DNA of 64,000 bases from Deltaproteobacteria bacterium. GTDB taxonomy: Bacteria > Myxococcota > XYA12-FULL-58-9. The position numbers were made by a program, and so were the translations under genes. The DNA is taken from contig JACRCV010000041.1 in assembly GCA_016218825.1 (NCBI GenBank), positions 1 through 64,000 of the forward strand, given 5' to 3'. Below are positions 7,449 through 24,137 of the stretch, in pieces (within the stretch, counting starts at the first letter, position 1; every line of letters starts with the position of its first letter). Under the pieces are notes generated by a model. The model was not told the DNA's origin, ran no database searches, and saw nothing but the letters and a program-made list of their open reading frames with translations.

Positions 7449-7498
7449 GGTTGGCAGGAGCGTCCAATCCCGGTTGCACCGCCTTGAGGGAGCCCGTC

Positions 7499-8962
7499 AT
7501 GCTTCAGACCGCGTTGGCCCTGGTTCTCCTTGCCGCTGCTCCGTCCGACATCGTCCCGAGCGGCAACCCGACCACGGTGCCGTGGGGCAAGAAGGACAGC
7601 GGCTACCTCTTCGACGACAACAAGTCCCTCACCCTCGACGTCACCGGTCCGACCGCGGTGGTGTTGGAGCTGCGCGGCAACGCCACCCTCAAAGGGAAGA
7701 AGATCGCGCTCGAGATCGCGCGCAACGACGCCTTCACCTCGAAGAACAGCATCGCCTTCAAGCCGACGCCCGGCGGCCCCGACAAGCTCCGCTTCATGGC
7801 CAAGCTCGGCTTCAAGGTCGCGGACGGGCCGCAGCACTTCGTCCTGACCGCCGACACCGCCGGCCTGGCGTTGCGCGCGATCACGGCGAAGGCCGTGCCC
7901 AAACCCATCACCGCCGCGGCCGAGCAGCCGCTGCCTGGCCCTGGTCCTGGCGCTGCCGTGGCCGGCAAGGCGCCGACGCCGCCCGCCGAGACCGCGGCAC
8001 CGCCACCCGCCGCCGCCGTCGAAGCGCCGGCCGCCCCGGCACCCGCCCCGGCGACGACCGAAGAGATCGCGGCGACGACGGTAGCGACCGCGCACGACGC
8101 CAACGCGATGCTCATGGGCGCGGACCAGAAGGACGCCCCCAAGGCCGCGCCGGAGGCGGGCGTCGCGACCGCGGCGTTGCGAGTCGCGGTGTACGACCTC
8201 GAGCTCCAGGGCGTCGACCCCCGCGTCGGCAAGGTGGTCACCGACAGCTTGCTCGCCGAGGTGCGCAAGCTCCAGGGGGTGGCGGCGATCGGCATGACCG
8301 AGATCCGCGACATGCTGTCGATGGAGGCCAGCAAGCAGATGGCGGGCTGCGAGTCGAACGAGTCGTGCCTCGCCGAGATCGCGGGGGCGCTGGGCGTCGA
8401 CGACTTGGTCACCGGCTCGCTCGCGAAGGTCGGCGACGGCAACATGTTCGTCGTCCGCCGCGTCGACCAGCGGCAGGCCAAGATCCGCGGCACCGTGAAC
8501 CAGCGGCTGAAGGCCGGGGCCGGCGACGAGTTCCTGCTCGCCATCGGGCCGGCGGTGCAGGAGCTGTTCCCGGAGCGCGACCTGAAGGCCGGCAAAGAAC
8601 GCGGCGTCGCCAAAGAGGTGGCGTTGCGCATCAACCCGCCGCCGCTACCGAAGTGGACATTCTACTCCGCCGCCGGCGCGGCCCTGGTGGCGGTGGCCGC
8701 CGGCGGGGTCATGGAGTTTCTGGCGCAGGACAAGGCCAAGGACTACCGCGCCACCGCGGCGCGCGGCGTGCCGACCGCGGCGAACCCCAACGCCGAGATC
8801 TCGGGCGCCGAGCTGAAAGCGAAGGCCGACTCGGCCACCTTCAGGGCCGACACCGCCCGCTACACCTTCATCGGCTCGGGCGTGTTCGCGCTCGCCGCCG
8901 GCGTCATGGCCTTCTTCACCGACTGGCAGGGCTACGGCGAAGTCCAGCCCGGCGGTCGCTAG
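7499..8962 (+). CDS. Secreted/membrane protein of the CsgG/AMIN-like paralogous family
   Basis: 487 residues; ATG 7499 has GAGGGAG at 7486-7492. A short Sec-like signal (LQTALALVLLAAAPS) leads into a beta-rich domain (~20-140) and a Pro/Ala-rich linker (~150-205). The core domain (~235-370) begins LRVAVYDLELQGVDPRVGKV and carries the Cys pair and helix CESNESCLAEIAGALGVDDLV, shared with the 4569 and 43591 proteins. The family reads like an outer-membrane-associated CsgG-type fold in which a target value is reported per component, but this is inference. Two hydrophobic segments near residues 400-420 and 455-475 suggest a C-terminal membrane hairpin. It is convergent with the large propeller/FN3 gene, only 27 bases apart. 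Confidence 0.85.
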   Translation: MLQTALALVLLAAAPSDIVPSGNPTTVPWGKKDSGYLFDDNKSLTLDVTGPTAVVLELRGNATLKGKKIALEIARNDAFTSKNSIAFKPTPGGPDKLRFMAKLGFKVADGPQHFVLTADTAGLALRAITAKAVPKPITAAAEQPLPGPGPGAAVAGKAPTPPAETAAPPPAAAVEAPAAPAPAPATTEEIAATTVATAHDANAMLMGADQKDAPKAAPEAGVATAALRVAVYDLELQGVDPRVGKVVTDSLLAEVRKLQGVAAIGMTEIRDMLSMEASKQMAGCESNESCLAEIAGALGVDDLVTGSLAKVGDGNMFVVRRVDQRQAKIRGTVNQRLKAGAGDEFLLAIGPAVQELFPERDLKAGKERGVAKEVALRINPPPLPKWTFYSAAGAALVAVAAGGVMEFLAQDKAKDYRATAARGVPTAANPNAEISGAELKAKADSATFRADTARYTFIGSGVFALAAGVMAFFTDWQGYGEVQPGGR

Positions 8963-8980
8963 CCGGTCGTCGACAGCTGC

Positions 8981-9000
8981 CGTGTCGCGCTACCGACACG
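8981..9000. terminator. Weak convergent hairpin
   Basis: CGTGTCG (8981-8987) pairs with CGACACG (8994-9000), loop of six. It sits between and partly inside two convergent 3' ends, over the stop codon of the minus-strand gene. It lacks T tracts, so a bidirectional terminator is only possible. Confidence 0.25.
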
Positions 9001-12000
9001 TATCCTCACCGAGGGCGAAGGCCCAGGTCGTGACGAGCGCCTGCGCGCTGTAACGCGAGTAGTCGCCGCCGCGGTGCGAACGGACCCGGTAGACGTAGGT
9101 GTGCTCCGGCTCCAGGCCGAGGGTGTCGGTGTGGCCGACCATGTTCGGCCCCACGCCCGCGATGCGGGCAAACCCGCCGTGCCAGAGCTGCCGCTCGACC
9201 TCGAAGCCGTCCTCGACGCTGGCGAAGTCCTGCCACTCGAGGCGAACGGCCATCGCGCCCACCGCGGTCGCGATCAAGCTCGCCGGTGCCCCCGACGCCG
9301 TGACGATCCCGACGTCCGCGCTCGGCGTGCTCCAACCACAGACCGCGGTCTTGTACGCGGCGACTCGGTAGCGGTAGCTGGTCTCCGCCGTCAGCCCGCC
9401 GTCCACGTGGTTGCGCGCGGTCGTCGGCTCGAGCCCCACCTCGGAGAACAGAGTGCAATCGGCGCCGCTGCAGCGCTCGATACGGTAACCGCTCGCGTCG
9501 CTCGGCGTATGGCTCCACGCGATCGCGGTCGCCACGTCGCTCACGACCCGCGCGGTGACCCCGGTGGGCGCCGTCGACCGCGGCGTCGTCGCGTAGGCAG
9601 CAGCGCTCCAGTCGGTGATCCAATAGGGCGCCGCACCGCGCTCGGCGCGGATGCGGTAGCAGTACGTCCGGCCCTCGCAGGCCGTGGCGTCGACGTAGGC
9701 GGTCGCGTTGGCCGGCGCGTTCATCACCGCGACGCCGCCCGAGAAGTCGCAGCTGTCGCCGTCGACCCGCTCGATCCCAAAGCCGGTCTCCGAGCCCGTC
9801 ACATCGCCGAACCCGAGCCGCAGCTCGGTCGTGCTCGCAGGCGCCACCGTTAGAGTGGTGGGGACGCCGGGCAGGCCGGTCGCGGCGATCGCGGTGTTGC
9901 TGTAGGCCGTCGGCCAGACGCAGGCGGCGGTCTTGAAGGCCCGAGCCCGATAGGAATAGGAGGTGTCGAGATCGACCTGCAGATCGGCGTAGGCGCCGAT
10001 GCCGCCGACGACCGTCGCGATCGGCGCAAACCCCAGGGTTTGGCAGGTGGCGGTCTCGCAGCGCTCGAGGGTGAAGCCGCTTTCGTCGCTGTTGGTGTCG
10101 ACCCACGCCAGACCGATGTTCGACTCGTTCGCCCGGGTCGCGACCAGCGCCGACGGCACCGTGGGCACCGGCGTCGTCACCGTGACCGGTCCCGTCCACG
10201 CTGTCAGCCAGGTCGGCGCGGTGTTCTTCTCGGCGCGGATCCAATAGTGGTAGGTCGTCCCGGCGCAGACTCCGGTGTCGACGAGGAGCTGCGTGTTCGC
10301 GGCTGCGGCCAGCACCACGTTGCCGGCGGCATCGACGGCACATGGATCACCCGCGCAGCGCTGAACCGTGAAGACGGTCTCGGCGCCGGTGCGATCGACC
10401 CACTCGAGGTTGACGGTCGTGGTGTTGACCGGCGTCGCTCTAAGCGCGGAGGGCGCCGGCGGCGTCAACGTCGTCGCCGCGGCTTCGTTGCTGAACGCTG
10501 TCGTCCACCCGCAAGCGGCCGCCTTCACCGACCGAACCCGGTAGGTGTAGGAGGTCGAGACCTCGAGGTCGGTATCGCGGTAGGTGACGATGTTGGTGCC
10601 GACGGTGGTGAGCTGGCCGAAGGCCGGGCAGTCTCCGGCGCGGCAGCGTTGGATCTCGACGTAGGACTCATCGGCGTTGGTGTCGCTCCACGCCAGGGAG
10701 ATCTCCGACTCGGTGACCGCGGTCGCCACCAGCGTCGTCGGCGCCGCGATCGCCGGCAAGCTCACGTCTGCGCTCGGCGCGCTGGTCACGGTCCAGGTGG
10801 TCGTCACAGTGCGCGCCGCGACGACGCGGTAGCGATAGGTGGTAGCCGCACACACACCGGTGTCGGAGTACCGCCAGCTGTTCGCGCCGAGGGTCGCGAC
10901 CGGGGCGAAGGCGCTGCACGCCGCCGCCTCGCAGCGCTCGATCCGATACTCGCTCTCGGTGGCGGTGTTGTCCGTCCACGTCAGATCGATGCGCGTCGTG
11001 CCCACAGGCGTCACGGCGACGTTGGTCGGCCCGGCCACGGTCGTGACCGCCTCGGCTTGGCCGGAGTACCCCGTGTCCCAGCCGCAGCTCGCGGCCTTGG
11101 TGGCGCGCAGCCGGTAGCGATAGGTGCTGTTGGGCTGCAGGCCGGTGTTGACGAAGCTCGTGGCGTTGGCGGCGGCGACCGCGATCTCGGCGAAGTCGAC
11201 GCAGCTCGAGCCCAGACAGCGCTCGATCCTGAACCCGGTCTCGTCGACGGTGGTGTCCTGCCAGGTCAGGTTGATCCGGTCCTCGTAGCCGCGCGTCACC
11301 GCCAACAGCACCGGCGGCAACGGTGCAGCGCTGGTCGCCGCGGCCGGCCCACCGTAGGGGCTCGACCAGTCGGTGCCGTTGAACGCTTGGACCTGATAAC
11401 GGTAGGTCGTGCCGTTACAGATGCTGGTGTCGACGTAGCGCGTCGCGTTCGCCGCCGCGGTGGCGAGATAGCTGAAGCTCGTGCACCCGGGGCCGGTGCA
11501 GCGCTCGATGCGGAAGCCCTCTTCGCCGTCGGTGTTGTCGGTCCAGTCCAGACGCACTTGGGTCGTGTCCGGCGCCGACGCGGTGACGCTGCCGGGCGCC
11601 GCGGGAGCCAAGGTCATGGTCGCGGCCACCACCCATCGGCTGGTCTCGCCGCCGGCCTTGAAAGCCCGCAGGCGGTAGCAGTAGAGGGCGCTGGTATACC
11701 GGCCGCTGTCGGTGGCGCTGACCGCGTTGGCGGCGGTGGTCGCGACCACCGCCCATGCGCCCCCGGAGCTGCAATCGCCGCTCTTGCGCTCGAGCTGGTA
11801 GCCGGACTCCGAGGTCGAGTTGTCCACCCAGGTCACAGCGACCGTGGTGTAGCTCGGGGTAAGGACGAGCTGCGTCGGCACCTCCAACAGGTCGTTGGCG
11901 AGCTTCAACAGCAGCAGGTCGTAGTCGCCGACCGCGCTCGTCGTCGTGCCGACCACGAAGGCCTCCCCGAGCGCGTTCACCGCCACGCCGGCGGCGCGAT

Positions 12001-14881
12001 CCTCGCCTCCGGCGCTGCCGTCGTAGACCACGCCGTCGATGAACCGGCCGTGCTCGTCGTAGCGCACCCCCATGGCGTCGGAGTGGAGGCCGCCGTGGGT
12101 GTCACCGGCCAGCACCACGCGACCCGAGAGATCCATCGCCGCGCCGTGGACGACGTCGTCGTGACTGGAACGCACGAAGGTGTTCTGCCACAAGAGCGTA
12201 CCGTCGGTGTCGTAGCGCCGCAGGTGCCAGTCCCGGTCTTGCACCGCCGCGGTCACCGTGCCGACCACGACGGCGTCGAAGCTCACCGGGTCTACGAGCA
12301 GCGCCGTGGCGCGATCGTCCCCGCCCGACGGCGCGCCGTAGGACCGCTCCCATAACCGGGTGCCGCTCGCGCCGTCGTACTTCACCACGTAGAAGTCGGC
12401 CGTACCGGAGGCGCTGGCCGACACCCCGGCGACGTACACCGACGCCGACGGGCCGAGCGCCACCGCCATCGCGCAGTCCTCGCCGCCACCGGCGGTCGCG
12501 AGGATGTCCGTCCAGCCGCGGATCCCCGTCGCGCCGTCGTAACGCGCCGCAAACCAATCGTCATCGACCCCGTTGGCGCTCCTGCCGACGACGAAGACGT
12601 CGCCGGCCGGCGAGGTGGCGACCGCGGTGGGCTGGTCGTTGCCGTGCGCGCCGCGGTCATAGGGCGTCGCCTCCCACAAGAGCGCGCCGCTGTCGCTCAG
12701 TCGCAGCACGTAGACGTCATCGTCCCAGGCGGCGTTGCGTCCGTAACCGACGACGATGAAGCCGCCCGTGGGATCGGCGGCGACCGCCACCGCGACGCTG
12801 CGGTCGTCATCCCCCGCCGGGCCGTTGTATTGCCGCCCCCAGACACGCGCCCCGGTCGAGCCGTCGTACGCGAGCGTGTAGATGTCGTTCGAGTCGCCGC
12901 CGGGGAAGCTATAGAGGTAGGAGAAGCCCGACACCACCACGCCGCCCCCGGCGCCGACGGTGACCGTCGCCGGAAGATCGGAGCCGTCCTGGTCGCCGTT
13001 GTAGCGCGCCTCCCAGAGGATCTGGGGGTCGCTGCCGTCGACCTTCACCGTCAGGTAGTCGAACTGCCCCAGCGTCGAGTAGCTCGAGGCCACTGCCACC
13101 GGCCGATTGTCGGGCCCGGTCGCGATGCCGACGCCGAGGTCGTCACCGCCGTTCTGCAGCGCGTCGTAGACGAAGGTCCATTCGGGGGCGCCGAGCACGG
13201 CCTCGCTGGTGGCCGCGTGCGCCTCGTTGCTGTAGTCCGAGTACGTGCCCGCCCCGAGGTAGGCGCGAACGCGATAGGTGTAGTCGCTGTCGGGCGCGAT
13301 ACCGGTGTCGGTGTACGTCGCCCTTTGGGCGGCGAGCGTCGCCACCTCGACGAAGCTGCCGCTGGTGCCCGCGCGGCGCTCCACCTTGAAGCCGGTCTCG
13401 TTGTCGGAGTTGTCCACCCACGTCAGGCGAACCTCGAGGGCGGTGTCGACGGCGGCCCACAGCGCCGTCGGCCGGTTCAAGCTCCCCGGGTCCAGAGAGA
13501 CAAGAGCGACGTCGAGATCGGACGCGCCGCTCGCCGCCGCGTCGGCAAAGCCAGCGACCACGACGCTCCCGACCGGGGTGAGTCCGACACCTACCGCACG
13601 GTCGTTGCGCCCGGCGACGCCGCCCCAGCGCCGGGCCCACGCCTCGCCGCCGGTGCTCGACACGTACTTGAGCACCACGAAGTCGTAGTAGCCGCTCGCC
13701 TCGTCGAAGGAGTCGCCGGCGACGAAGACCGCATCAGCAGCCGGCGCCAGCACCAGCGCCACCCCCCGATCGGCGTTGCCGTTCACCGAGTTGTAGGTGC
13801 TGCTCCAGCGCACCTCGCCGGTGGCGTGATCATAGCGCACGGTGAGCACGTCGCTCGCGGTCGCCGGGTCGAAGGCATAGCCGGTCACGTAGACGTCGCC
13901 CGCGGCGTCGAGCTCCAGATCTCGGACCACCTCGTCGTAGCCGTCGTCGCGGCTGACCGTCCAGACGACGCTGCCGGTCGCGCCGCTCAGCTTGGTGACG
14001 TGGAAGTCGCGGTTGACGCCGTTCGCGTAGGTGCCGGCGACCACCACGTCGCCGCCGGCGTCCTGACGCACGAGCTCGCCCAACGAGTCGCCGCCGAGAG
14101 GACGGCGAGCCTCCCAGCGCCGGACGCCGTCGATCGTCCAGGCGATGACCACGAGCTCGAAGACCCCGGCGGCGTTCTGCGACTCGCCGGCCACGACGAC
14201 ACCGGCAGCGCCGACCGCGACCGCCGCCGCCCGATCGTGCCCGGCGGCCGTCCCGTCGTAGGTCCTCTGCCACAGCGGCGCGCCGGCGGCCGAATACTTC
14301 TGCAGCAGCAGGTCGTCGGGCCCGGCCGCGGTCTGCGAGTAGCCGGCCACGTAGACGTTGCGGCTCGCGTCGGCCGTCACCGCGGTGGCGCGATCGGTGC
14401 CGTTGGCGCTGCCGTTCACGCTCCGCTGCCACACGATGGCGCCGTCGGCCGCGGCAAACTTCACCGTGAGGAAATCGAAGCCGGTCCCGCCCCAGGTGTC
14501 GCCCGCCACCACGACGTCATCGGCGCCGTCGACCACCACCCCGGCCAGGTAGTCGTCGTGCCCGGCGCTGCCGTTCGTCTGCCGCCAGCGGACGCTCGTG
14601 CCATCCACCGAGTGCTTGGTGACCTGCCAATCCCGAGCGCCCGGCTCGTCGACGTAGCCGGCGACGACGACATTGCCGCCGGAGTCCATCGCCTGGTGCT
14701 TGGCCTCCTGCGACAGCGGCCGCGGGTCCACGAGAGTCCACAGCGTCGCGCCGCCGACACCGGGGATCGTCACGACCGGCACGACGAGCACCAGCGCGAA
14801 GAGGGCCGCCACGCCCGCGTTCAGCCACCGCCGCCGCCGGCGCCGGCCTACGGACACTCTGCGTTCGTCATCAGAGGTCAC
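8990..14881 (-). CDS. Giant beta-propeller (SBBP-like) and fibronectin type III repeat surface protein
   Basis: 1963 residues from GTG 14881, which overlaps the cytochrome stop as GTGA; GGGAGG lies five bases upstream. An Arg-rich stretch and one hydrophobic helix (~25-40) act as signal or anchor. Residues ~45-465 and ~565-1000 are two sets of propeller-like repeats with the recurring pattern G-x-V-x-V-A-G ... W ... Y-D/N-G, often GxDxA, typical of SBBP repeats. One FN3 module (~467-560) separates them and ten more run in tandem from ~1000 to the end. The FN3 units keep L-x-W-x-D, I-E-R-C and Y-R-Y-R-V signatures; most carry a Cys pair (IERCxxxxCxxF) suited to disulphides outside the cytoplasm. 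Expected to be a long extracellular or periplasmic rod. Coupling to the multihaem cytochrome suggests it scaffolds or exposes it. No sorting signal is visible; the protein ends in TCR. Confidence 0.9.
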   Translation of the reverse strand: MTSDDERRVSVGRRRRRRWLNAGVAALFALVLVVPVVTIPGVGGATLWTLVDPRPLSQEAKHQAMDSGGNVVVAGYVDEPGARDWQVTKHSVDGTSVRWRQTNGSAGHDDYLAGVVVDGADDVVVAGDTWGGTGFDFLTVKFAAADGAIVWQRSVNGSANGTDRATAVTADASRNVYVAGYSQTAAGPDDLLLQKYSAAGAPLWQRTYDGTAAGHDRAAAVAVGAAGVVVAGESQNAAGVFELVVIAWTIDGVRRWEARRPLGGDSLGELVRQDAGGDVVVAGTYANGVNRDFHVTKLSGATGSVVWTVSRDDGYDEVVRDLELDAAGDVYVTGYAFDPATASDVLTVRYDHATGEVRWSSTYNSVNGNADRGVALVLAPAADAVFVAGDSFDEASGYYDFVVLKYVSSTGGEAWARRWGGVAGRNDRAVGVGLTPVGSVVVAGFADAAASGASDLDVALVSLDPGSLNRPTALWAAVDTALEVRLTWVDNSDNETGFKVERRAGTSGSFVEVATLAAQRATYTDTGIAPDSDYTYRVRAYLGAGTYSDYSNEAHAATSEAVLGAPEWTFVYDALQNGGDDLGVGIATGPDNRPVAVASSYSTLGQFDYLTVKVDGSDPQILWEARYNGDQDGSDLPATVTVGAGGGVVVSGFSYLYSFPGGDSNDIYTLAYDGSTGARVWGRQYNGPAGDDDRSVAVAVAADPTGGFIVVGYGRNAAWDDDVYVLRLSDSGALLWEATPYDRGAHGNDQPTAVATSPAGDVFVVGRSANGVDDDWFAARYDGATGIRGWTDILATAGGGEDCAMAVALGPSASVYVAGVSASASGTADFYVVKYDGASGTRLWERSYGAPSGGDDRATALLVDPVSFDAVVVGTVTAAVQDRDWHLRRYDTDGTLLWQNTFVRSSHDDVVHGAAMDLSGRVVLAGDTHGGLHSDAMGVRYDEHGRFIDGVVYDGSAGGEDRAAGVAVNALGEAFVVGTTTSAVGDYDLLLLKLANDLLEVPTQLVLTPSYTTVAVTWVDNSTSESGYQLERKSGDCSSGGAWAVVATTAANAVSATDSGRYTSALYCYRLRAFKAGGETSRWVVAATMTLAPAAPGSVTASAPDTTQVRLDWTDNTDGEEGFRIERCTGPGCTSFSYLATAAANATRYVDTSICNGTTYRYQVQAFNGTDWSSPYGGPAAATSAAPLPPVLLAVTRGYEDRINLTWQDTTVDETGFRIERCLGSSCVDFAEIAVAAANATSFVNTGLQPNSTYRYRLRATKAASCGWDTGYSGQAEAVTTVAGPTNVAVTPVGTTRIDLTWTDNTATESEYRIERCEAAACSAFAPVATLGANSWRYSDTGVCAATTYRYRVVAARTVTTTWTVTSAPSADVSLPAIAAPTTLVATAVTESEISLAWSDTNADESYVEIQRCRAGDCPAFGQLTTVGTNIVTYRDTDLEVSTSYTYRVRSVKAAACGWTTAFSNEAAATTLTPPAPSALRATPVNTTTVNLEWVDRTGAETVFTVQRCAGDPCAVDAAGNVVLAAAANTQLLVDTGVCAGTTYHYWIRAEKNTAPTWLTAWTGPVTVTTPVPTVPSALVATRANESNIGLAWVDTNSDESGFTLERCETATCQTLGFAPIATVVGGIGAYADLQVDLDTSYSYRARAFKTAACVWPTAYSNTAIAATGLPGVPTTLTVAPASTTELRLGFGDVTGSETGFGIERVDGDSCDFSGGVAVMNAPANATAYVDATACEGRTYCYRIRAERGAAPYWITDWSAAAYATTPRSTAPTGVTARVVSDVATAIAWSHTPSDASGYRIERCSGADCTLFSEVGLEPTTARNHVDGGLTAETSYRYRVAAYKTAVCGWSTPSADVGIVTASGAPASLIATAVGAMAVRLEWQDFASVEDGFEVERQLWHGGFARIAGVGPNMVGHTDTLGLEPEHTYVYRVRSHRGGDYSRYSAQALVTTWAFALGEDTCR

Positions 14882-17800
14882 GGCGCCTCCCACTCCGACA
14901 CCCCGTTCCAGGAGTTGTCGGGCCACGACCCGGTCGGATGACAGTTCACGCCGCGCTGGCCCGAGCCGCGCGGGAAGCTGCCGCGACTGCCCTGGCCCAC
15001 GACCCCGCCGGCCGGCACCCGGCCGCGGTGCGCAAAATCGAGCGCGTTGGTGTCGAGCAGCTCCGGCAGGCCGGAGGCGTGCGGCTGGTGGCACTTGGAG
15101 CACGGGAAGGAGTGCTGGACGTTGTCGCCCCAGCCCTTCACCGCTTCGTGGACGCGGTCGAGGCTCCGCCAGGGCATGGTGTCATTGACGCCGTCCGCGA
15201 GCTCGGTCTTCGGGTGGCAGCGCAAACACAGACCGGCGAACTGCTCTTCGGTCTCGACGATGCGCGCCGCGCCGCCGAAGGTGTTCTGGTCGATGTTCAC
15301 CCCTGGGGTCGGCGGGTTGTTCTGGATGGTCAGCGCCGGCGGTGGCAGATCTTCCTTGTACGGCGACGTCAGCCACGTCCCTTTGAGCAGCGGCACGGCG
15401 TAGGCTTGGTTCGCCCCCAACGTCGGCGAGACGCCGTGGGGGTCGTGACACGGGGTGCACAGCCCGTCGATGGTCCCCATCGCCTCGGTCTCGAGGGGGA
15501 ACGAGGCCTTGAGGTGACCGCCGAGGACGTGGCGACTCTCTTTGTAGGCCATGCGCAGCTTCACGCCTCGCACGCCGTCGCCGAACCGCGGGCCGTCGCG
15601 GTAGCCCATGACCGGGGCCGACTCGCCGAAGGTCGAGGCGTAGCCCCACGGCGTCGCGCCGGCGTCCGGGGTCTCGTGACAGTCGAAGCACTGCGCGGCG
15701 CCGGCGTTGTAGGGGTTGGGATCGATCTTCGCCGCCTGGGCGGTGTACGTGCTCCGGTAGCCGCCCTTGCCTGCCTGGGTCTCCTTCAGGTTGCCGCCGT
15801 TCTTGGTGCCGTTGAAGGTCACGTAGCTCGAGGTGACACCCTGGGTCTTGGAGCCGTGCGAGCTGTGACAGTCGAAGCACGCCACGCGCTCGGTGCCGGT
15901 GCGGCTGTTCGCGATCGGCCCGTCGACCCCGGTCGCGACGCTGAAGCCGCCCTCGTTGGCCTCAGGGTGACCGTGCGCCGAGTAGGCCTTGAGGACGCTC
16001 TTTGGCGCCGCGCCCGCGACGCCCGGGTACTTGCCCCAGGGGGTGGTCGCGGTCTGCTCGTAGCGGCTGGCGATGCTCGTCGTGTCCCAGGCGTACTGAC
16101 GCGGCGTCTTGCAGTCGCCGTGCTCGGCGTCGACGACGTCGAACGGCCGGGTGTCGTTGTTCTGGTCGGAGTGACACGACAGGCAGTGCGCGGTCACCTT
16201 GGCGACCTCGGCCCGCTCCTCCACCGTCCCGATCTTGCCGGCGACGAACTGCACCGCGGTGCTGCCGAGAGCGAACGTCGGCGGCCGGGTCCCCGGGCCC
16301 CAGATCGCGAGATCCACCGGCGCGTTCCTGATCGAGGTGTGGCTCTGGAAGTCGTAGCCCTCGTGATGCTCGGTGTTGATGATGCCAATCTCGGTCGCCT
16401 CGAAGTGGCAGGCGTAGCAGTGGCGGCCGGTGACCTCCGTCCCCTGGATGTGATGCGAGCTCGCGGCGAGCTGCGCCATCACGTTCATCCGGTCGCCGAC
16501 GACGCCGGCGTGACACTTGACGCAGTCGCGCGGCAGGCTGAAGCCCGAGTGGCGCGGCACCGGCTTGGCCCGGTGACAGGTGCCGCAGGCCTGGTGACTG
16601 GCGTGCGAGTCGGTGAAGCGGTGCTCGTGGCACTCGGTGCAGATCCGACCGGCCTGATGGCCGTCGCCGTAGTCATAGCGGTAGTGCTGCCGCGGCTCGG
16701 AGTGGCAAACGTTGCAGACGCCGTCGTACGGCGGGTTGGCGCGGGCGTAGTCGAAGCCGGTCTGCTTGCGGGTGAACTTCGCCTCGCGGCGCGTCAGGGG
16801 GATGCCGAAGGTGCCGTCGGTGGTGAGCGCGATCGACTTCTGGATCATGTAGAGGTTGGCGTCGCCGTGCGGATCGTGGCAGTCCCAGCAGAACTTGCCG
16901 CCCTTCCACACGCCGTCGTTGACGTAGGCGTTCCAGTGCTTGTAGCCGAAGTGGGTCGAGGTGGCGCGTGACACCGCGGTGACGAGCCCGGTGCCGGGGT
17001 CGTAGCCCGGGACGTACTGCGCGCCGCTGTGGCACTCGGTGCACTGGCCATCGGCGCCGCCGTCGTGACACTGGAGGCAGACGCCCATCATCACGTACTG
17101 GTTCTGCACGTCGGCCTTCTGCGAGGCGGTCCAGACCCCGGCCCCGGCCTTGTGGGTGCTGGCGTCGTCGAGGTGGCATCCGGCCACGACGCACGAGCCG
17201 CCGCCGCCGGCATAGGGCGCGTGGTCGGGCGGCCCTGGGATCTGATCGAGCTGCGGCGCCAGCGTCGATTCGACAGCGTCGTGACAGGCCCGACACTCGT
17301 CGTCCTGGTGCTCCATGTGACAGAACACGCACTCCTTCTCGAAGCGCCGGTTGTACTGCTCGTGCTTCTTCAGGCGGAACGGGTTGTCGGCCACCTTGTG
17401 CAGGACCTTGTTGTCGTGACAGTACCAACACGGGTTTCCCGGAAAGTTGGCGGCCGGGTTCCCGGAAGGGTACGGACCGGCGGCGGTCGGCCGGCCGTGG
17501 CCGGTCGTTTGCCACTCGACCATGTTGATCCGCGCCCGCCGGCTGTTCCAGGCATTGAAGTCGTCGACGTCGGCCTCGGTCGTGCCGTGGCAGGTGAAGC
17601 AGAGGATGGCGTTGTTGGCGGAGTCGCCCCACTGCGGCTCGTCCCCGGTGTGGCAGACGGTGTTGGCGCAGGTCTTGGTGACCGGGTCGTAGGTGCCGCC
17701 GTCCTTGAAGGCCACGTCCTTGACGCGGTTGACGTGATACGCCGGGTTGATGTGGCTGAGCTCGGACATGTGGCCGGACGGGACGCGGTCCTTGTGGCAG

Positions 17801-19683
17801 TCGGTGCAGGCGCCGTTCACCACGGTCAGCATGTGGCAGTCGTCACACGAGAAGTCGGTGAGGATGTGGCGCGCATGGGTGTTGGCGCGCTCGGTGCCGG
17901 TGCCGGAGTTCGGATACATCGGCATCGCCGACTTCCACTCTTCGCCCGGTTGCCACGCGGTCCTTTGGGGATGGCAGTTGCCGCAGGCCCCGGTGGGGTG
18001 GCCGTGGCAGGTGTTGCAGCTGGTGCGACCGTCGGTCCAGGCGAAGTTGCGGATCTCGGGATTGACGGTCGTGCCGTCGGAGTGACAGTAGACGTCGCTG
18101 CACACCCTGGTGACCGGATCGTACGAGGACGGCGGGTTGCCGACGATCGACCACTGCGGCGCGATGACGACGTCGACCTGACCGTTCACGTGCCTCTGGT
18201 AGTCCGTGATGTTGCCGTCCTGATCGGCGACGCCGGCGTGGCAATAGTCGCAGGGGTAGTGCCGCACCCAGCTGCTGCCCACCAGACGCTCGTGGCCGTG
18301 GCTCGTCATCTCCCGGGGCGCGCCGTTCAAGCCGTTGTGGCAGGCGTCACAGGCGAGGCTGCCGGCGTCGGCGAACGCCACCGGCTGGTTCGGCGGCCCG
18401 CCCGCCGCGTCGCTGTGACAGTAGGTGCCGGTGCAGGCGCCGCCGGCGTCATCGTAGGAGCCGCCCTGAGAGAAGCGCACCTCGACACGGCCGTTCACGT
18501 GGCGTGCCTTGTCGGCGATCGCGGTCGAGCTCGACGCAGTCGCGGTGTGGCAGCGCTCGCATCCGAAGCCGTAAGTCGCCGCATCGGTGTGGGCCGGGTG
18601 CCGACCGGAGAGCGAGGTCGAGGCGCCGCCGTTCGCGTGGCAGGCGCCGCAGCGCGCGGCGTCAGCGAGGATCGTGTCGAATGACGGCGACCGGACGTAG
18701 GTCGGCGGGCTCTTGCCGTCGCTGTGGCAGTAGACGTCGGCGCAGCGCTGGTCGGCGAAGGTGGCGGTGGGCGGGTTCAGGGCCTTCAGACTCGTGGGCG
18801 GCGCTTGCAGGTCGGCGAGCCGGAGATCGAGGACGCCGTTCGGATGCGGCACTTCGGCGCCCTTGTGGCAATTGGAGCAGCCGAAGGCGTAGTGGTCGCT
18901 CGCCTGGTCGCCGGTGAGCTCGGCGGTCTGGCGGTAGTCGGTGTACGACGCCGCGGCCGGGTCCAGATCTTCCCCCAGGTGCGTGGCGTGCGCGCCCACC
19001 GGCGGCGGCAGCGGGTGGCAGACACCACAGGTGGTGGGCTGCACCTCGAGGGTGCCGTTGATGTGGGTGGCGACGTCTTCGGGCCTGAGCCCGGCGAACG
19101 GGTGGCAGCCGTCGCAGCGGTCGGGAAGGAGCAGGTGCGGATGGGGCGGCGGTGGTGGCGCGCCGTGGCAGGCGTCGCAGGCCATTGGGCCGTCCGGATC
19201 TGCCAGCCACCGCGGCCGCGTGCGCTTCCCCCCGGCGCCGGCCGGCTCGAGCGTCTGCCCGTGACAGTAGACGCTGCAGGCGCCGTCGGTCATCGCGGGC
19301 ACGGCGCCCGCCGCAGAGGCGATCGCTCGCCACTCGATCTCGGCGGGCCACTGGTCATCGATGTGGCCGGCGTCGAAGATCGAAACCGGTACGACGTGGC
19401 AGGTCTCGCAGGCGATCGCCGGGCGCCAGATGGATGATTGCAGATGCGCCTGGTGGGCGTCGACGGCCGTGCCGTCGCGCCAGTACGCGGGTGGCGGCGC
19501 CGGGTTGCCGTTCGCCGGGGTGCCGTGACACTCGTAGCAAACGTCCCAGGAATCGGCGGCGGCGAGCGGGCGGGCGCGGCTACACGCCGTCGCGAGACCG
19601 GCGGCGAGCATTACCCAAGCGACCGGTCCCAGCGAGGGGCGGTGAAGGCGAGTCAGGCGGGCTTGTGCAGCAACCGCGAGCAC
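14878..19683 (-). CDS. Giant multihaem c-type cytochrome, ~38 haem-binding motifs
   Basis: 1601 residues. I count 32 CXXCH motifs (CYECH near residue 48 to CSKCH near 1540), one CX3CH (CSVYCH) and five CX4CH (for example CADVYCH, CTGTYCH, CSDVYCH, CANTVCH), plus an orphan NCHP near the C-terminus. The alternation of CX4CH with CXXCH in the first half matches the Geobacter CxxxxCH...CXXCH domain family (TIGR01904-type). Many extra His residues are available as distal ligands. The leader (VAWVMLAAGLATACSRA) has a Cys that could be lipidated. GTG 19683 lacks a good ribosome site and lies nine bases after a TACGAT box, so it may be leaderless; ATG ~24 codons in is an alternative start. Such proteins move electrons through the periplasm and to the cell surface. 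Haem attachment needs cytochrome c maturation genes, which are not in this window. Confidence 0.95.
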   Translation of the reverse strand: MLAVAAQARLTRLHRPSLGPVAWVMLAAGLATACSRARPLAAADSWDVCYECHGTPANGNPAPPPAYWRDGTAVDAHQAHLQSSIWRPAIACETCHVVPVSIFDAGHIDDQWPAEIEWRAIASAAGAVPAMTDGACSVYCHGQTLEPAGAGGKRTRPRWLADPDGPMACDACHGAPPPPPHPHLLLPDRCDGCHPFAGLRPEDVATHINGTLEVQPTTCGVCHPLPPPVGAHATHLGEDLDPAAASYTDYRQTAELTGDQASDHYAFGCSNCHKGAEVPHPNGVLDLRLADLQAPPTSLKALNPPTATFADQRCADVYCHSDGKSPPTYVRSPSFDTILADAARCGACHANGGASTSLSGRHPAHTDAATYGFGCERCHTATASSSTAIADKARHVNGRVEVRFSQGGSYDDAGGACTGTYCHSDAAGGPPNQPVAFADAGSLACDACHNGLNGAPREMTSHGHERLVGSSWVRHYPCDYCHAGVADQDGNITDYQRHVNGQVDVVIAPQWSIVGNPPSSYDPVTRVCSDVYCHSDGTTVNPEIRNFAWTDGRTSCNTCHGHPTGACGNCHPQRTAWQPGEEWKSAMPMYPNSGTGTERANTHARHILTDFSCDDCHMLTVVNGACTDCHKDRVPSGHMSELSHINPAYHVNRVKDVAFKDGGTYDPVTKTCANTVCHTGDEPQWGDSANNAILCFTCHGTTEADVDDFNAWNSRRARINMVEWQTTGHGRPTAAGPYPSGNPAANFPGNPCWYCHDNKVLHKVADNPFRLKKHEQYNRRFEKECVFCHMEHQDDECRACHDAVESTLAPQLDQIPGPPDHAPYAGGGGSCVVAGCHLDDASTHKAGAGVWTASQKADVQNQYVMMGVCLQCHDGGADGQCTECHSGAQYVPGYDPGTGLVTAVSRATSTHFGYKHWNAYVNDGVWKGGKFCWDCHDPHGDANLYMIQKSIALTTDGTFGIPLTRREAKFTRKQTGFDYARANPPYDGVCNVCHSEPRQHYRYDYGDGHQAGRICTECHEHRFTDSHASHQACGTCHRAKPVPRHSGFSLPRDCVKCHAGVVGDRMNVMAQLAASSHHIQGTEVTGRHCYACHFEATEIGIINTEHHEGYDFQSHTSIRNAPVDLAIWGPGTRPPTFALGSTAVQFVAGKIGTVEERAEVAKVTAHCLSCHSDQNNDTRPFDVVDAEHGDCKTPRQYAWDTTSIASRYEQTATTPWGKYPGVAGAAPKSVLKAYSAHGHPEANEGGFSVATGVDGPIANSRTGTERVACFDCHSSHGSKTQGVTSSYVTFNGTKNGGNLKETQAGKGGYRSTYTAQAAKIDPNPYNAGAAQCFDCHETPDAGATPWGYASTFGESAPVMGYRDGPRFGDGVRGVKLRMAYKESRHVLGGHLKASFPLETEAMGTIDGLCTPCHDPHGVSPTLGANQAYAVPLLKGTWLTSPYKEDLPPPALTIQNNPPTPGVNIDQNTFGGAARIVETEEQFAGLCLRCHPKTELADGVNDTMPWRSLDRVHEAVKGWGDNVQHSFPCSKCHQPHASGLPELLDTNALDFAHRGRVPAGGVVGQGSRGSFPRGSGQRGVNCHPTGSWPDNSWNGVSEWEAP

Positions 19684-19727
19684 GATGACAGCATCGTACC
19701 ACAGGACCAGCTGCGGTGGGTGAAAGC

Positions 19728-19837
19728 GTTCACGGGGTCATCGCGATGGCTCTCGTAATACACGGGGGACGCAGAGCCGCGCCACAACGCCTTGTTTTCG
19801 CCGAAGATCTTCTCGCGGCGGGCGGTCCCCCGTGAAC
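19728..19837. promoter_or_regulatory. Inverted-repeat cluster upstream of the multihaem cytochrome gene
   Basis: The gap between the cytochrome and the regulatory-like lipoprotein contains CACGGGGGAC (19761-19770) and its perfect complement GTCCCCCGTG (19825-19834), and GTTCACGGGG (19728-19737) matched by CCCCGTGAAC (19828-19837). Three copies of one CACGGGG core within 110 bases look like an operator or a long-range RNA hairpin controlling the cytochrome transcript. No regulator gene is adjacent. Confidence 0.45.
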
Positions 19838-19850
19838 GGTAACCAGTGGG

Positions 19851-20963
19851 CTACCATTCCGGGAATGGCGTCACCACGATCTCGACGTCGGTCAAGGTCG
19901 AGCCGCCGTCGACGCCGACGCTGCCATCCGGACTGCCGGTGTAGACCCCGACGAGCTCGCCGGGCGCCGCCCGGTGGCCGAGCGCGCGGCGCGCCATGAG
20001 CGCGTAGCGTCCGCCTTCGGGGAGCGTGAGGCTGAAGCGGCCGTCGGTGGTGGTCGCGTTGGCCACGGCGTCCGGTCGTCCGGCGCGCAGCGTGCCCCGG
20101 TAGGCGCCGACGAAGATCCCGGCCACCGGTCGCCGCTGGTCGTCGAGCACGATCCCGTCGATCCGCGTCGGTCGCGGCTCGCTCTTGTAGTAGCCGGCAT
20201 CCCGCACGACAGAGCTCAACGCCACCGGCACCGCGCCCGGACCACGAATGATCACGGGGTTGCGGTCGTGGTAGGCGAAGGCGTCGCCCACCGCCAGCGG
20301 GCCGAACAGCATGCCGCTCTGGCGTTTGCGCGCCACCAGGAAATAGCGGCCGCGGTCGAGGTCCAACGCGAAGCGGCCGCGCGCGTCGGTCAGGGTCTGG
20401 GCCACCGGGGCGCCGCGGAGCTCGGTCGACAAATCCATGTACGCGAGCACCTGGGCGCCGGCCACCGGGGTCGTGCCTTGAAACACCATGCCGTTCACAC
20501 CCTGTCCGGTCGCGAGCGGCGGGAGGGTCGCGGCGTCCGCCTCCTGGTGCCGGACGACGGCGAACCGCACGAAGAGCTCCTGGCCGGCGACCAGCTCTTC
20601 GGGGTTGCCTCCGAAGTAGCCGTAGATCTGATCGCCGCCGGTGGCGATCAGGTAGTAGACGCCCGGGGGCACCGTGAAGCGGAACGCGCCGTCAACGCCG
20701 GTGGGCGGCGATTCGAAAGCCGCCGGCCCGCGCAGCTCGGCCTCGACGTCGGTATAAAGGTGGACGGTCGCGCCGCTTTGCGGACGGCCGTCGATGGTGA
20801 CCACGCCCTCGATGGTCGCCGGCTCGGCCGCAAGTCGGGTCGCCGCCGGCGTCGCGACCGGAGCTTCAACGGCATCGGCGCGCGGCTCGCACCCCCGACA
20901 GCCGGGAAACGCGGTGAGGCACGAGGCGACCACGCCGAACAGAGCTGTTACGGGTGTTGTCAT
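19851..20963 (-). CDS. Lipoprotein with three carboxypeptidase-regulatory-like domains
   Basis: 370 residues from ATG 20963. The leader ends in a good lipobox (VASC, Cys15), so it is probably lipid-anchored. Three beta-sandwich units of the CarboxypepD_reg/Cna-B-like type follow: each opens with a G-x-V-x-x-x-G-x-P-x-x-G-A-x-V motif (IEGVVTIDGRPQSGATV at ~52, VNGMVFQGTTPVAGAQV at ~157, IDGIVLDDQRRPVAGIF at ~265) and closes with D/A-x-G-x-F-x-L-x-x-x-x-G-x-Y. Such domains are non-catalytic and mediate binding at the cell surface. Placed 167 bases upstream of, and in the same direction as, the multihaem cytochrome; in metal-reducing bacteria proteins of this type often accompany cytochromes, so I infer a docking role. 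Confidence 0.85.
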   Translation of the reverse strand: MTTPVTALFGVVASCLTAFPGCRGCEPRADAVEAPVATPAATRLAAEPATIEGVVTIDGRPQSGATVHLYTDVEAELRGPAAFESPPTGVDGAFRFTVPPGVYYLIATGGDQIYGYFGGNPEELVAGQELFVRFAVVRHQEADAATLPPLATGQGVNGMVFQGTTPVAGAQVLAYMDLSTELRGAPVAQTLTDARGRFALDLDRGRYFLVARKRQSGMLFGPLAVGDAFAYHDRNPVIIRGPGAVPVALSSVVRDAGYYKSEPRPTRIDGIVLDDQRRPVAGIFVGAYRGTLRAGRPDAVANATTTDGRFSLTLPEGGRYALMARRALGHRAAPGELVGVYTGSPDGSVGVDGGSTLTDVEIVVTPFPEW

Positions 20964-21056
20964 GGCGTCCGTCCGCAGAGACTTAGCACCATGGGCGGGC
21001 TCCGGTCACTCGCTCGCGTAGGCTACGGCAGCGCGAGTACGCGACCGCCGGCCGGG

Positions 21057-24000
21057 TCAGAGCGGTTGGCGATTGCGGCCGAGCCGCACCTTGAGGTCTT
21101 CGAAGAGCGAGTAGGCGACCGGCACGATCACCAGCGTGATCACGAGCGACAGCGCCTGGCCGCCGACGATCACCTTGGCGAGCGAGGCGCGCGCCGCCGC
21201 GCCCGGGCCGTTGCCGAGCGCGATCGGGGTCATGCCGGCGATGAGCGTCAACGTCGTCATCAAGATCGGCCGCAGCCGGGCGTGGTTGGCCTCGAGGATC
21301 GCCGCCCTGATCTCGCGCCCCTTTGCCCGCAAGGTGTTGGTGTAGTCGATCTGCAGGATGCCGTTCTTCTTGACGATGCCGAAGAGCATGAACACCCCGA
21401 GGAGGCTGTAGAGGTTCATGGTCTCCTGCAGCAACAAGAGCGACAGCAGCGCGAACGGCAAGGTGAGCGGCAGCGACAACAAGATGGTGATCGGGTGCAG
21501 GAAGCTCTCGAACTGCGCCGCCAGCACGATGTACATGAAGATGAACGCCAACAGGAAGGCGAGGCCCATGTTGCGCATCGTCTCGCCCATCATCTTGGCG
21601 CGTCCGAGCGCGACGCCGCGGTAACCGGGCGCGAAGCTGATCTCCTTCGCGGCGGCGTTGACCTCGGTGATGGCGCTCGCGAGATCGAGGCCGTCGAGGT
21701 TGGCGTAGACGGTCACCAGGCGCTGCCGATTGTAGCGGTCGACCTGGGTCGGGGAGCGACCCTCGGTGAGGTCCGCCACCTGCTGCAGCGCCACCAGCGC
21801 GCCGCTCTGGGCCAAGAGCGGGTGGCGCGCGACCCGCGCCGCGCTGTCCCGATCCGCCTCGGCGAGCCGCAGCCAGACGTCGTATTGCTCGACGCCCTCG
21901 CGAAACTTCGAGACCGGCTCGCCGCCGACGAGGGTGCGCAGCGACGTCGCGAGCTCCGCCGCGGTGATCCCCAGATCCGCCGCCTTCGCCCGATCGATGT
22001 GCACCGCGACCTCGGGCTGGCGCGCCGCGAGCGAGGTGTCGACGTCCACGAAGCCTGGAAGCCGCCGGATCTTCGCGGCGAGCGCGTCGGAGTACTGCAT
22101 CAGCGCCTCCAGATCCGGCCCGGTGATGCTGTAGGAGAATCCGTAGCCGCCCCGGGTCCCCGACAGGCCGCCGATGTCGTTGACCGCCGAGCGGAGCTCC
22201 GGGAAGCGCCGCAAGATCTGGCGCACCTGCTTCATCACCTCGCTCTGGGGGTAAGGGCGCGCTTCGAGATCCTCGATCGCGATGTAGATCGAGCCGCGGG
22301 TCACGTCCTCGCCGCCGGTGTCGGCGCTGCCGATCTGGGTCAGCGTCGTCACCGGCCCCTCGAGCGCGTGGATCGCGTCCTCCACCTTGCCGAACAGCTC
22401 GCTCGTCGCCTCGAGGCTGGTGCCGGCGGGTGCGATCAGGGTGACTTGAAACTCGCTGCGATCGTCGACCGGCAAGAAGTCCTTGCCGAGCACCGCCAAG
22501 AGCGGCGCGGTCGTCGCGACCAGGCCGAGCGCCAAGAGCACCGTGGCCAGCCGATGCTCGAGCGCGGCGCGCAGGATCCAGCCGTAGCTCGCCTCGATCG
22601 CCTGCCAGACCCGGTTCGCTTTCGACGAGGCCGCCGCGGCCGCCGGTCGCAAGAAGCGCGACGACAGCATCGGCGTCAGCGTGAACGACACCACGAGGGA
22701 GATGCCGATGGCGAACGCCACCGTCATGCCGAACTGGTAGAAGAAGCGGCCGACCATGCCCTGCATGAAGGCCACCGGCAAGAAGATCACCATCAGGGAG
22801 GTGGTGGTCGCCATCACCGCGAGGCCGATCTCGGTCAACCCGTCGATCGCCGCTTGCAGCGGATCCTTGTGATGCTCCTCCATGTGCCGGAAGACGTTCT
22901 CGAGGACGACGATGGCGTCGTCGATGACGATGCCCACCGCGAGGGTGAGGCCCAACAGCGACATGTTGTTGAGGGTGAAGTCGAGGGCGCGCATCAACGT
23001 AAAGGTCGCGACCAGCGAGGTCGGGATCGCGAGCGCCGCGATGACGGTCGAGCGCCAGTTGCGCATGAACAACAGCACCGCGAGCGCCGCGAGGATGCCG
23101 CCCAACACCAGGTGGAGCTTGAGCTCGGCGATCGAGGTGCTGATGAAGCGCGACTGGTCGGAGACCACGCCGATGGCGACGTCCTTCGGCAACCGCGGCG
23201 CGATCTCGGCGAGGCGCTTCTTCACCCGCTCGATCACCTCGATGGTGTTGGTGCCCGACTGCTTCTGGACCACGAGCGACACCGACGGCCGGCCGCGCCC
23301 GGGATCGCCCTTCCGCCACAGCCGCGCCATCGAGCGCGGCTCCTCGACCCCGTCCTTGATGGCGGCGACGTCGCCGAGGGTCACGGGCCCACCGCCGCGG
23401 TTCGCGACCACCAGGCGCGAAAACTCCGCGACCCGGTCGAGGCGCGCCATGGTCCGCAGCACCTGTTCGCTGTCGCCGCGGTCGATCCGCCCCGACGGGA
23501 TCTCGACGTTCTGACTCAGGAGCGCCGTCTTCAGGCGCGAGATCGGCAGGCCGTAGGCGAAGAGCTTGTCGACATCGACCTCGACGTTGATGGCGCGCTT
23601 CCAGGCGCCGGCGGGGATCACCGCGCCGACGCCGTCGACGTTCTCGATGGCCTCCTTGACCTTGAGGCGCGCGATCTCGGAGACCTCCTTCAGGTCACGG
23701 TCCGCGGTCACCGTCAGGGTCACGACCGGGATGGCGTCGAAGTCGATCTTGGTGATGATCGGCGGCTCGGTGCCCTCCGGCAGCCGGGCGATCACCGTCG
23801 CCACCTTGTCGCGCACGTCCTGCACCGCCTCGGCGATCGAGCGCTCGAGCAGGAAGCGCACCGCGACCCGCGACACGCCTTCCATGCTCACGGAGTTGAG
23901 CTCGTCGATGCCGGAGACGGTGTTGACGACCTCTTCGATGGGCTTGGTGATCTGCGACTCGATCTCCTCTGGCGAGGCGCCGCGCAGCACCGTGGTGACG

Positions 24001-24137
24001 GTCACCATCGGGAACTCGATCTTCGGCATCAGATCGACGCCCAAGGTGCGGTACGAGAAGTACCCCAACACCAACAGCAGCGCGGTGACCATCGTCGCCA
24101 ACACCGGCCGACGGATGAAGACGGTCAGAGACTCCAT
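21057..24137 (-). CDS. RND-family efflux transporter permease (AcrB/MexB type)
   Basis: 1026 residues, the usual HAE-1 RND length. TM1 (LATMVTALLLVLGYF) is followed by the periplasmic porter loop, TM2-6 near 330-480, a second large loop and TM8-12 at the end. The proton-relay pair is intact in TM4 (GIVIDDAIVVLENV, two adjacent Asp). FxPxxD-like segments near the start of each half (LMPKIEFP, DFLPVDDRSEF) are typical. The protein works as a trimer in the inner membrane, taking substrates from periplasm or membrane and passing them to the TolC-type channel. It is the last gene of TolC-MFP-RND on the minus strand, eight bases after the adaptor gene. Substrate unknown; drug, lipid or metabolite export are all possible. 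Confidence 0.96.
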   Translation of the reverse strand: MESLTVFIRRPVLATMVTALLLVLGYFSYRTLGVDLMPKIEFPMVTVTTVLRGASPEEIESQITKPIEEVVNTVSGIDELNSVSMEGVSRVAVRFLLERSIAEAVQDVRDKVATVIARLPEGTEPPIITKIDFDAIPVVTLTVTADRDLKEVSEIARLKVKEAIENVDGVGAVIPAGAWKRAINVEVDVDKLFAYGLPISRLKTALLSQNVEIPSGRIDRGDSEQVLRTMARLDRVAEFSRLVVANRGGGPVTLGDVAAIKDGVEEPRSMARLWRKGDPGRGRPSVSLVVQKQSGTNTIEVIERVKKRLAEIAPRLPKDVAIGVVSDQSRFISTSIAELKLHLVLGGILAALAVLLFMRNWRSTVIAALAIPTSLVATFTLMRALDFTLNNMSLLGLTLAVGIVIDDAIVVLENVFRHMEEHHKDPLQAAIDGLTEIGLAVMATTTSLMVIFLPVAFMQGMVGRFFYQFGMTVAFAIGISLVVSFTLTPMLSSRFLRPAAAAASSKANRVWQAIEASYGWILRAALEHRLATVLLALGLVATTAPLLAVLGKDFLPVDDRSEFQVTLIAPAGTSLEATSELFGKVEDAIHALEGPVTTLTQIGSADTGGEDVTRGSIYIAIEDLEARPYPQSEVMKQVRQILRRFPELRSAVNDIGGLSGTRGGYGFSYSITGPDLEALMQYSDALAAKIRRLPGFVDVDTSLAARQPEVAVHIDRAKAADLGITAAELATSLRTLVGGEPVSKFREGVEQYDVWLRLAEADRDSAARVARHPLLAQSGALVALQQVADLTEGRSPTQVDRYNRQRLVTVYANLDGLDLASAITEVNAAAKEISFAPGYRGVALGRAKMMGETMRNMGLAFLLAFIFMYIVLAAQFESFLHPITILLSLPLTLPFALLSLLLLQETMNLYSLLGVFMLFGIVKKNGILQIDYTNTLRAKGREIRAAILEANHARLRPILMTTLTLIAGMTPIALGNGPGAAARASLAKVIVGGQALSLVITLVIVPVAYSLFEDLKVRLGRNRQPL

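Follow-up and report, generated by a model that had tools for sequence, protein, structure and literature searches.

A giant multihaem cytochrome with mixed haem-motif spacings and a fibronectin type III partner gene in a Myxococcota genome

The locus and its genes

The window, by which we mean the whole stretch of 64,000 nucleotides that was analysed, has a GC content of 70% and belongs to a host genome of 6.5 Mb in 121 contigs. A giant multihaem c-type cytochrome stands at the centre of a unit of three genes within it:

8963..21056, ~12-kb unit of three genes, missing between the same flanking genes in a same-genus genome
8990..14812, minus strand, partner gene of 1940 amino acids with fibronectin type III (FN3) domains and SBBP-like repeats, probably exported, 65 bp downstream of the cytochrome gene
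14878..19683, minus strand, giant multihaem c-type cytochrome with 38 CXnCH motifs and an orphan CH (TIGR01904, Cytochrome_C7, PF09698)
19851..20963, minus strand, CarboxypepD_reg-domain protein, probably exported, upstream of the cytochrome gene

The cytochrome reading frame encodes 1601 residues from a GTG start, while an alternative ATG at 19611 would give a protein of 1577 residues. Its N-terminal sorting signal is ambiguous, with a weak lipobox around C34. MYXO-CTERM sorting domains occur in the host genome, with matches in none of 14 control genomes, in keeping with a member of the Myxococcota.

Counting by regular expression gave 32 CXXCH, one CX3CH and five CX4CH motifs and one orphan CH, the same numbers as those of a preliminary description made from the letters and translations. 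Its observation that the CX4CH sites cluster in the first half and alternate with CXXCH also holds, as all five lie within residues 1-837 and a CXXCH follows each. The counts are far above chance: 1000 composition-preserving shuffles contained on average 0.25, 0.24 and 0.23 motifs of the CX2, CX3 and CX4 type, respectively, with maxima of 3, 2 and 2. Only two of the 79 cysteines, C34 and C1191, fall outside motifs, and the C-terminal third is poorer in sites, with 7 CH over residues 1093-1601.

The homologue family and its conserved core

A scan of named genomes identified 64 related loci, mostly in Geobacteraceae, Desulfuromonadales, Desulfobulbaceae and Nitrospirota. Full-length homologues are mostly ~44-58% identical to the cytochrome, and a core of ~1260 residues is common to some 50 relatives, mainly from Geobacteraceae, Desulfuromonadales and Nitrospirota. 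The protein can be divided into two parts with different closest relatives:

18673..19551, minus strand, N-terminal module, residues 45-337, containing the CX3CH and a single CX4CH, nearest to other cytochromes from its own genome and phylum
14881..18660, minus strand, conserved core, residues 342-1601, with 30 CXnCH and the orphan CH, nearest to the Geobacter/Nitrospirota family

The preliminary description had named poor conservation of the motifs as grounds for doubting them, yet an alignment of 39 full-length homologues gives the opposite picture. From residue 348 onward, almost all haem sites are found in each of the 39 homologues, and from residue 300 onward the mean conservation of the motif cysteines and CH histidines is 99%, against 49% for other residues. 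Furthermore, the 31 CH sites of the core are accompanied by 32 non-motif histidines conserved in at least 90% of homologues. About one spare conserved histidine per site fits bis-His ligation throughout.

Among the longer family members, three (L034, L062 and L029) reach 2002-2575 residues with 46 to 58 CH sites, a range suggesting probable gains and losses of length in the variable N-terminal part. At L060 and L042, the cytochrome reading frame is in pieces, due to either pseudogene formation or sequencing errors.

The gene neighbourhood is conserved as well. Where the contig extends beyond the cytochrome gene, the FN3 gene follows directly in 49 of 50 loci, the exception being L031, and the FN3 partner is often 2000-2800 residues long. 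Relatives of the CarboxypepD_reg protein are found in several homologous loci, mostly 3' of the FN3 gene, and this protein may be a third component of the unit. Small proteins of this type lie near the cytochrome/FN3 pair at L010, L011, L012, L013, L020, L040, L048 and L050. Conservation of the neighbourhood does not extend to the RND efflux operon, and Rfam recognised no riboswitch in the window or in 14 homologous loci. No description of the pair or of its core, and no experimental work on the family, was found in the open-access full-text literature.

Relation to known multihaem cytochromes and likely role

By profile search, the cytochrome belongs among the TIGR01904-type CxxxxCH/CxxCH cytochromes, a known domain family to which the preliminary description had already pointed. 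TIGR01904 matches five stretches (E 4e-31) with 106.5 bits, above the curated cut-off of 27, and Pfam and NCBIfam also returned Cytochrome_C7 and paired-CXXCH matches. In contrast, the DmsE decahaem family TIGR03508 scored 12.6 bits, below its cut-off of 192.2. As in the Geobacter-type cytochromes covered by TIGR01904 and PF09698, CX4CH alternates with CXXCH, here as five CX4CH-then-CXXCH pairs. However, these models span ~73 or 36 positions, and the ~1260-residue core and the FN3 partner lie outside their descriptions.

The polymer cytochromes OmcS, OmcE and OmcZ of Geobacter are likewise multihaem and occur in organisms with extracellular electron transfer. They carry 4-8 haems per subunit. 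Searches of PDB sequences with the single sequence or a profile found no likeness to these nanowires, only weak or chance matches. AlphaFold2 models were weak (pLDDT 41 for residues 800-1601 and 59 for residues 220-880), and Foldseek with the weak 220-880 model gave no hits in the PDB.

Very large haem numbers have been described before. The extracellular members of PCC3 porin-cytochrome systems have a median of 34 haem sites, and a role as wires has been proposed for them (PMC5566968). While the cytochrome resembles them in its very many sites, it differs in having an FN3 protein as its partner, with no porin or second cytochrome recognised alongside: Pfam identified no porin in the 4.6-51.8 kb part of the window, where several proteins have no Pfam match. 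Giant cytochromes of ANME archaea are likewise single chains, with 20-86 haem sites, and are thought to cross the cell envelope (PMC9012536); compared by description, they differ in being archaeal and in carrying S-layer domains. As single chains of 85 sites in bacteria (PMC5566968) and 86 in archaea (PMC9012536) have already been reported, the novelty does not lie in size.

Nor is the 1601-residue cytochrome the extreme in its own genome, where an 80-site reading frame of 3123 residues is larger. The latter (L113:6216-15584, contig C18, plus strand) has 63 CX2, 4 CX3 and 13 CX4CH sites, close to the 85 and 86 of the published chains just mentioned, and consists mostly of ~171-residue repeats with 14 TIGR01904 stretches (E 9e-128). 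ResB/CcsA-type maturation genes adjoin it on the opposite strand. On contig C36 (L111:5223-17156 and L112), ResB/CcsA-type genes follow a reading frame of 3978 residues that has 55 CH sites, and a second genome of the same phylum (G059) contains a similar frame of 4005 residues.

Judged by its number of haem sites, by the carriers of the family, which include metal-breathing bacteria, and by the FN3 partner, extracellular electron transfer appears to be the most likely role of the cytochrome. Instead of a long-range wire, it could be a capacitor-like store of electrons in the periplasm or at the surface, or the redox component of an oxidoreductase complex. The sparse C-terminal third would leave space for a non-haem fold, and the missing nanowire homology also suits such a function. 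Yet Pfam and NCBIfam detect no enzyme domain in the cytochrome, and conduction would explain the near-total conservation of haem sites no less well. A store or an enzyme part therefore seems rather improbable, and a conducting role in extracellular electron transfer is preferred.

Origin of the unit

In a genome of the same genus (G001), the counterparts of the gene at 7484-8962 and the RND efflux gene at 21057-24137 abut, leaving no space for the three genes. In addition, a search of 194 other genomes of the phylum, including those of the same genus and family, did not recover the cytochrome core. Together, the empty site and this absence suggest that the unit was probably gained by the host lineage, presumably by horizontal transfer. 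In the family tree, the cytochrome lies nearest to Nitrospirota rows, but on a long end branch of 0.67. In a same-family genome (G002), the contig lacks the RND side at this locus. At 70%, the unit has the same GC content as the host, and third-position GC also resembles the host; base composition thus does not indicate recent transfer, and the arrival was either not recent or from a GC-rich donor.

Host-like base composition and the long end branch could also be expected if the gene pair had been inherited vertically and lost in the sampled relatives. Such a history is unlikely, as it would have to account for a core missing throughout the 194 other genomes, for flanking genes that directly abut in a close relative and for Nitrospirota as the nearest rows of the tree.

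While the unit was probably acquired, not all of the cytochrome shares the same affinity. Residues 45-337 share ~44% identity with cytochromes of the host genome and 29-36% with their best hits among the named family loci. From residue ~342 onward the order is reversed, with 49-64% identity to the family versus 31-41%. These opposite affinities point to a probable fusion of an N-terminal module of resident type with an acquired core. Alternatively, the N-terminus may simply have changed faster.

Sites with CX3CH and CX4CH spacing

Six sites deviate from the CXXCH spacing, and they are numbered here by the second cysteine of the motif:

19261..19278, minus strand, CX3CH site C136-H141 (site 140), found by regular expression
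18724..18744, minus strand, CX4CH site C314-H320 (site 319), CX4CH in 35/35 homologues reaching it
18415..18435, minus strand, CX4CH site C417-H423 (site 422), in homologues CX4 32, CX2 4, CX3 3
18082..18102, minus strand, CX4CH site C528-H534 (site 533), CX4CH in 39/39 homologues
17650..17670, minus strand, CX4CH site C672-H678 (site 677), CX4CH in 37/39 homologues
17173..17193, minus strand, CX4CH site C831-H837 (site 836), CH in 39/39 homologues with variable spacing

The spacing is thus retained almost without exception at three of these sites and exchanged at others. The reverse exchange is also seen, as sites 570 and 629, both CXXCH here, are CX4CH in 23 and 7 of the 39 homologues, respectively. 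For example, GHPTGACGNCH is found opposite GHPRGSCANANCH in matching context, and since the neighbouring residues are conserved, the swaps at 422, 570 and 629 are no alignment slips. At site 836 the spacing is free (19 CX4, 8 CX3, 3 CX2 and others), and six homologues have the CH alone. On the family tree, the minimum number of spacing changes is 3 at site 422, 6 at 570, 6 at 629 and 12 at 836. A site whose spacing changes repeatedly while its CH stays behaves as a working haem site.

Published precedent exists for both spacings. CXXXCH and CXXXXCH peptides of MmcA from Methanosarcina show the +615 Da mass shift of haem c in mass spectrometry (PMC11024163), tetrahaem cytochrome c3 has two CXXXXCH (PMC10454114), and a 2017 survey of iron oxidisers likewise included CX3CH and CX4CH among the haem sites that it counted (PMC5566968). 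MmcA and cytochrome c3 resemble the cytochrome in using these motifs beside CXXCH, yet they are small proteins from other organisms, with 7 and 4 haems, respectively. Taken together, the conservation of the sites, their position-for-position exchange with CXXCH and this precedent make it very probable that the CX3CH and CX4CH sites are real haem sites. The same evidence speaks against the view in the preliminary description that non-standard spacings require dedicated machinery or stay empty. Only ~32 haems would be bound if these sites were empty or otherwise used, for a disulfide or a metal, which the looseness of site 836, with six homologues lacking a nearby first cysteine, might suggest, but which is very unlikely in light of the near-invariant CX4CH at 319, 533 and 677, the swaps to CX2CH with the CH retained, a number of conserved spare histidines that agrees with the full number of sites, and the haem c found on both spacings in MmcA.

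As to the attachment of these haems, the CcmF/CcsB homologues that the preliminary description had proposed to look for are represented in the host genome, which has seven PF01578 (CcmF/CcsA-type) matches and PF05140 ResB proteins. Both System I and System II thus appear to be present. No maturation gene was recognised beside the cytochrome gene.

The orphan CH and the lone cysteines

Three positions bear on the C-terminal end of the protein:

14938..14943, minus strand, orphan CH, C1581-H1582
15043..15045, minus strand, A1547, codon GCG, the position of the cysteine of a T[ND]C-like motif in homologues
16111..16113, minus strand, C1191, lone conserved cysteine (DCKTP)

The 20 residues preceding the orphan CH contain no cysteine. 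The CH, its histidine included, is present in all 50 homologues reaching it (38 aligned and 12 further), and in the same 50 of 50 a T[ND]C-like cysteine (the TNC cysteine) lies ~25 to 80 residues before it. The window protein alone has an alanine in its place, and a sequencing error is an unlikely source of it, as GCG differs from TGC/TGT at all three bases. Of 39 homologues, 37 share C1191, and the two that have lost it retain the TNC cysteine.

The most plausible reading of an invariant CH behind a loop of highly variable length is a final haem site that has its two cysteines at either end of this long loop. Haem 1 of OmcZ, where a 14-residue loop separates the two cysteines (PMC9473688), provides a precedent for such a long-loop site. 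By conservation and by this analogy, the orphan CH probably carries one further haem. Here, the haem might be held by one cysteine, or by C1581 together with C1191. Tentatively, and with somewhat more doubt than belief, we propose that the C-terminal haem of the family sits on a TNC-loop(~25-80)-CH arrangement, that the alanine leaves a single thioether or brings in C1191, and that the attachment machinery reads a CH with a spatially near cysteine. A disulfide between the TNC and CH cysteines is possible but disfavoured, since all 50 homologues have the histidine after the cysteine and C1581 remains here despite the lost TNC cysteine. The orphan CH is thus better seen as a probable haem site.

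Proposed mechanism and implications

Overall, it is likely that the cytochrome is an exported giant multihaem wire or relay for extracellular electron transfer, accompanied by an FN3 protein as its surface or scaffold partner. According to this reading, it would conduct electrons at or beyond the outer membrane, possibly to minerals or partner cells, and the 38 CXnCH sites, whatever their spacing, would hold covalent haem c with His/His ligation, the orphan CH probably adding one more. The cell's standard cytochrome c maturation systems would attach the haems, while the giant FN3 protein could act as a surface scaffold or adhesin alongside the cytochrome.

The cytochrome/FN3 pair looks like a cross-phylum unit for extracellular electron transfer and makes the FN3 protein a named candidate partner. 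As one and the same site is CX2CH, CX3CH or CX4CH among relatives, the family offers a natural experiment on haem attachment, and the exchange argues that counts restricted to CXXCH miss haems in giant cytochromes. If the proposal for the C-terminal haem is true, it would, together with this exchange, mean that attachment needs a CH and a spatially near cysteine rather than a fixed spacing.
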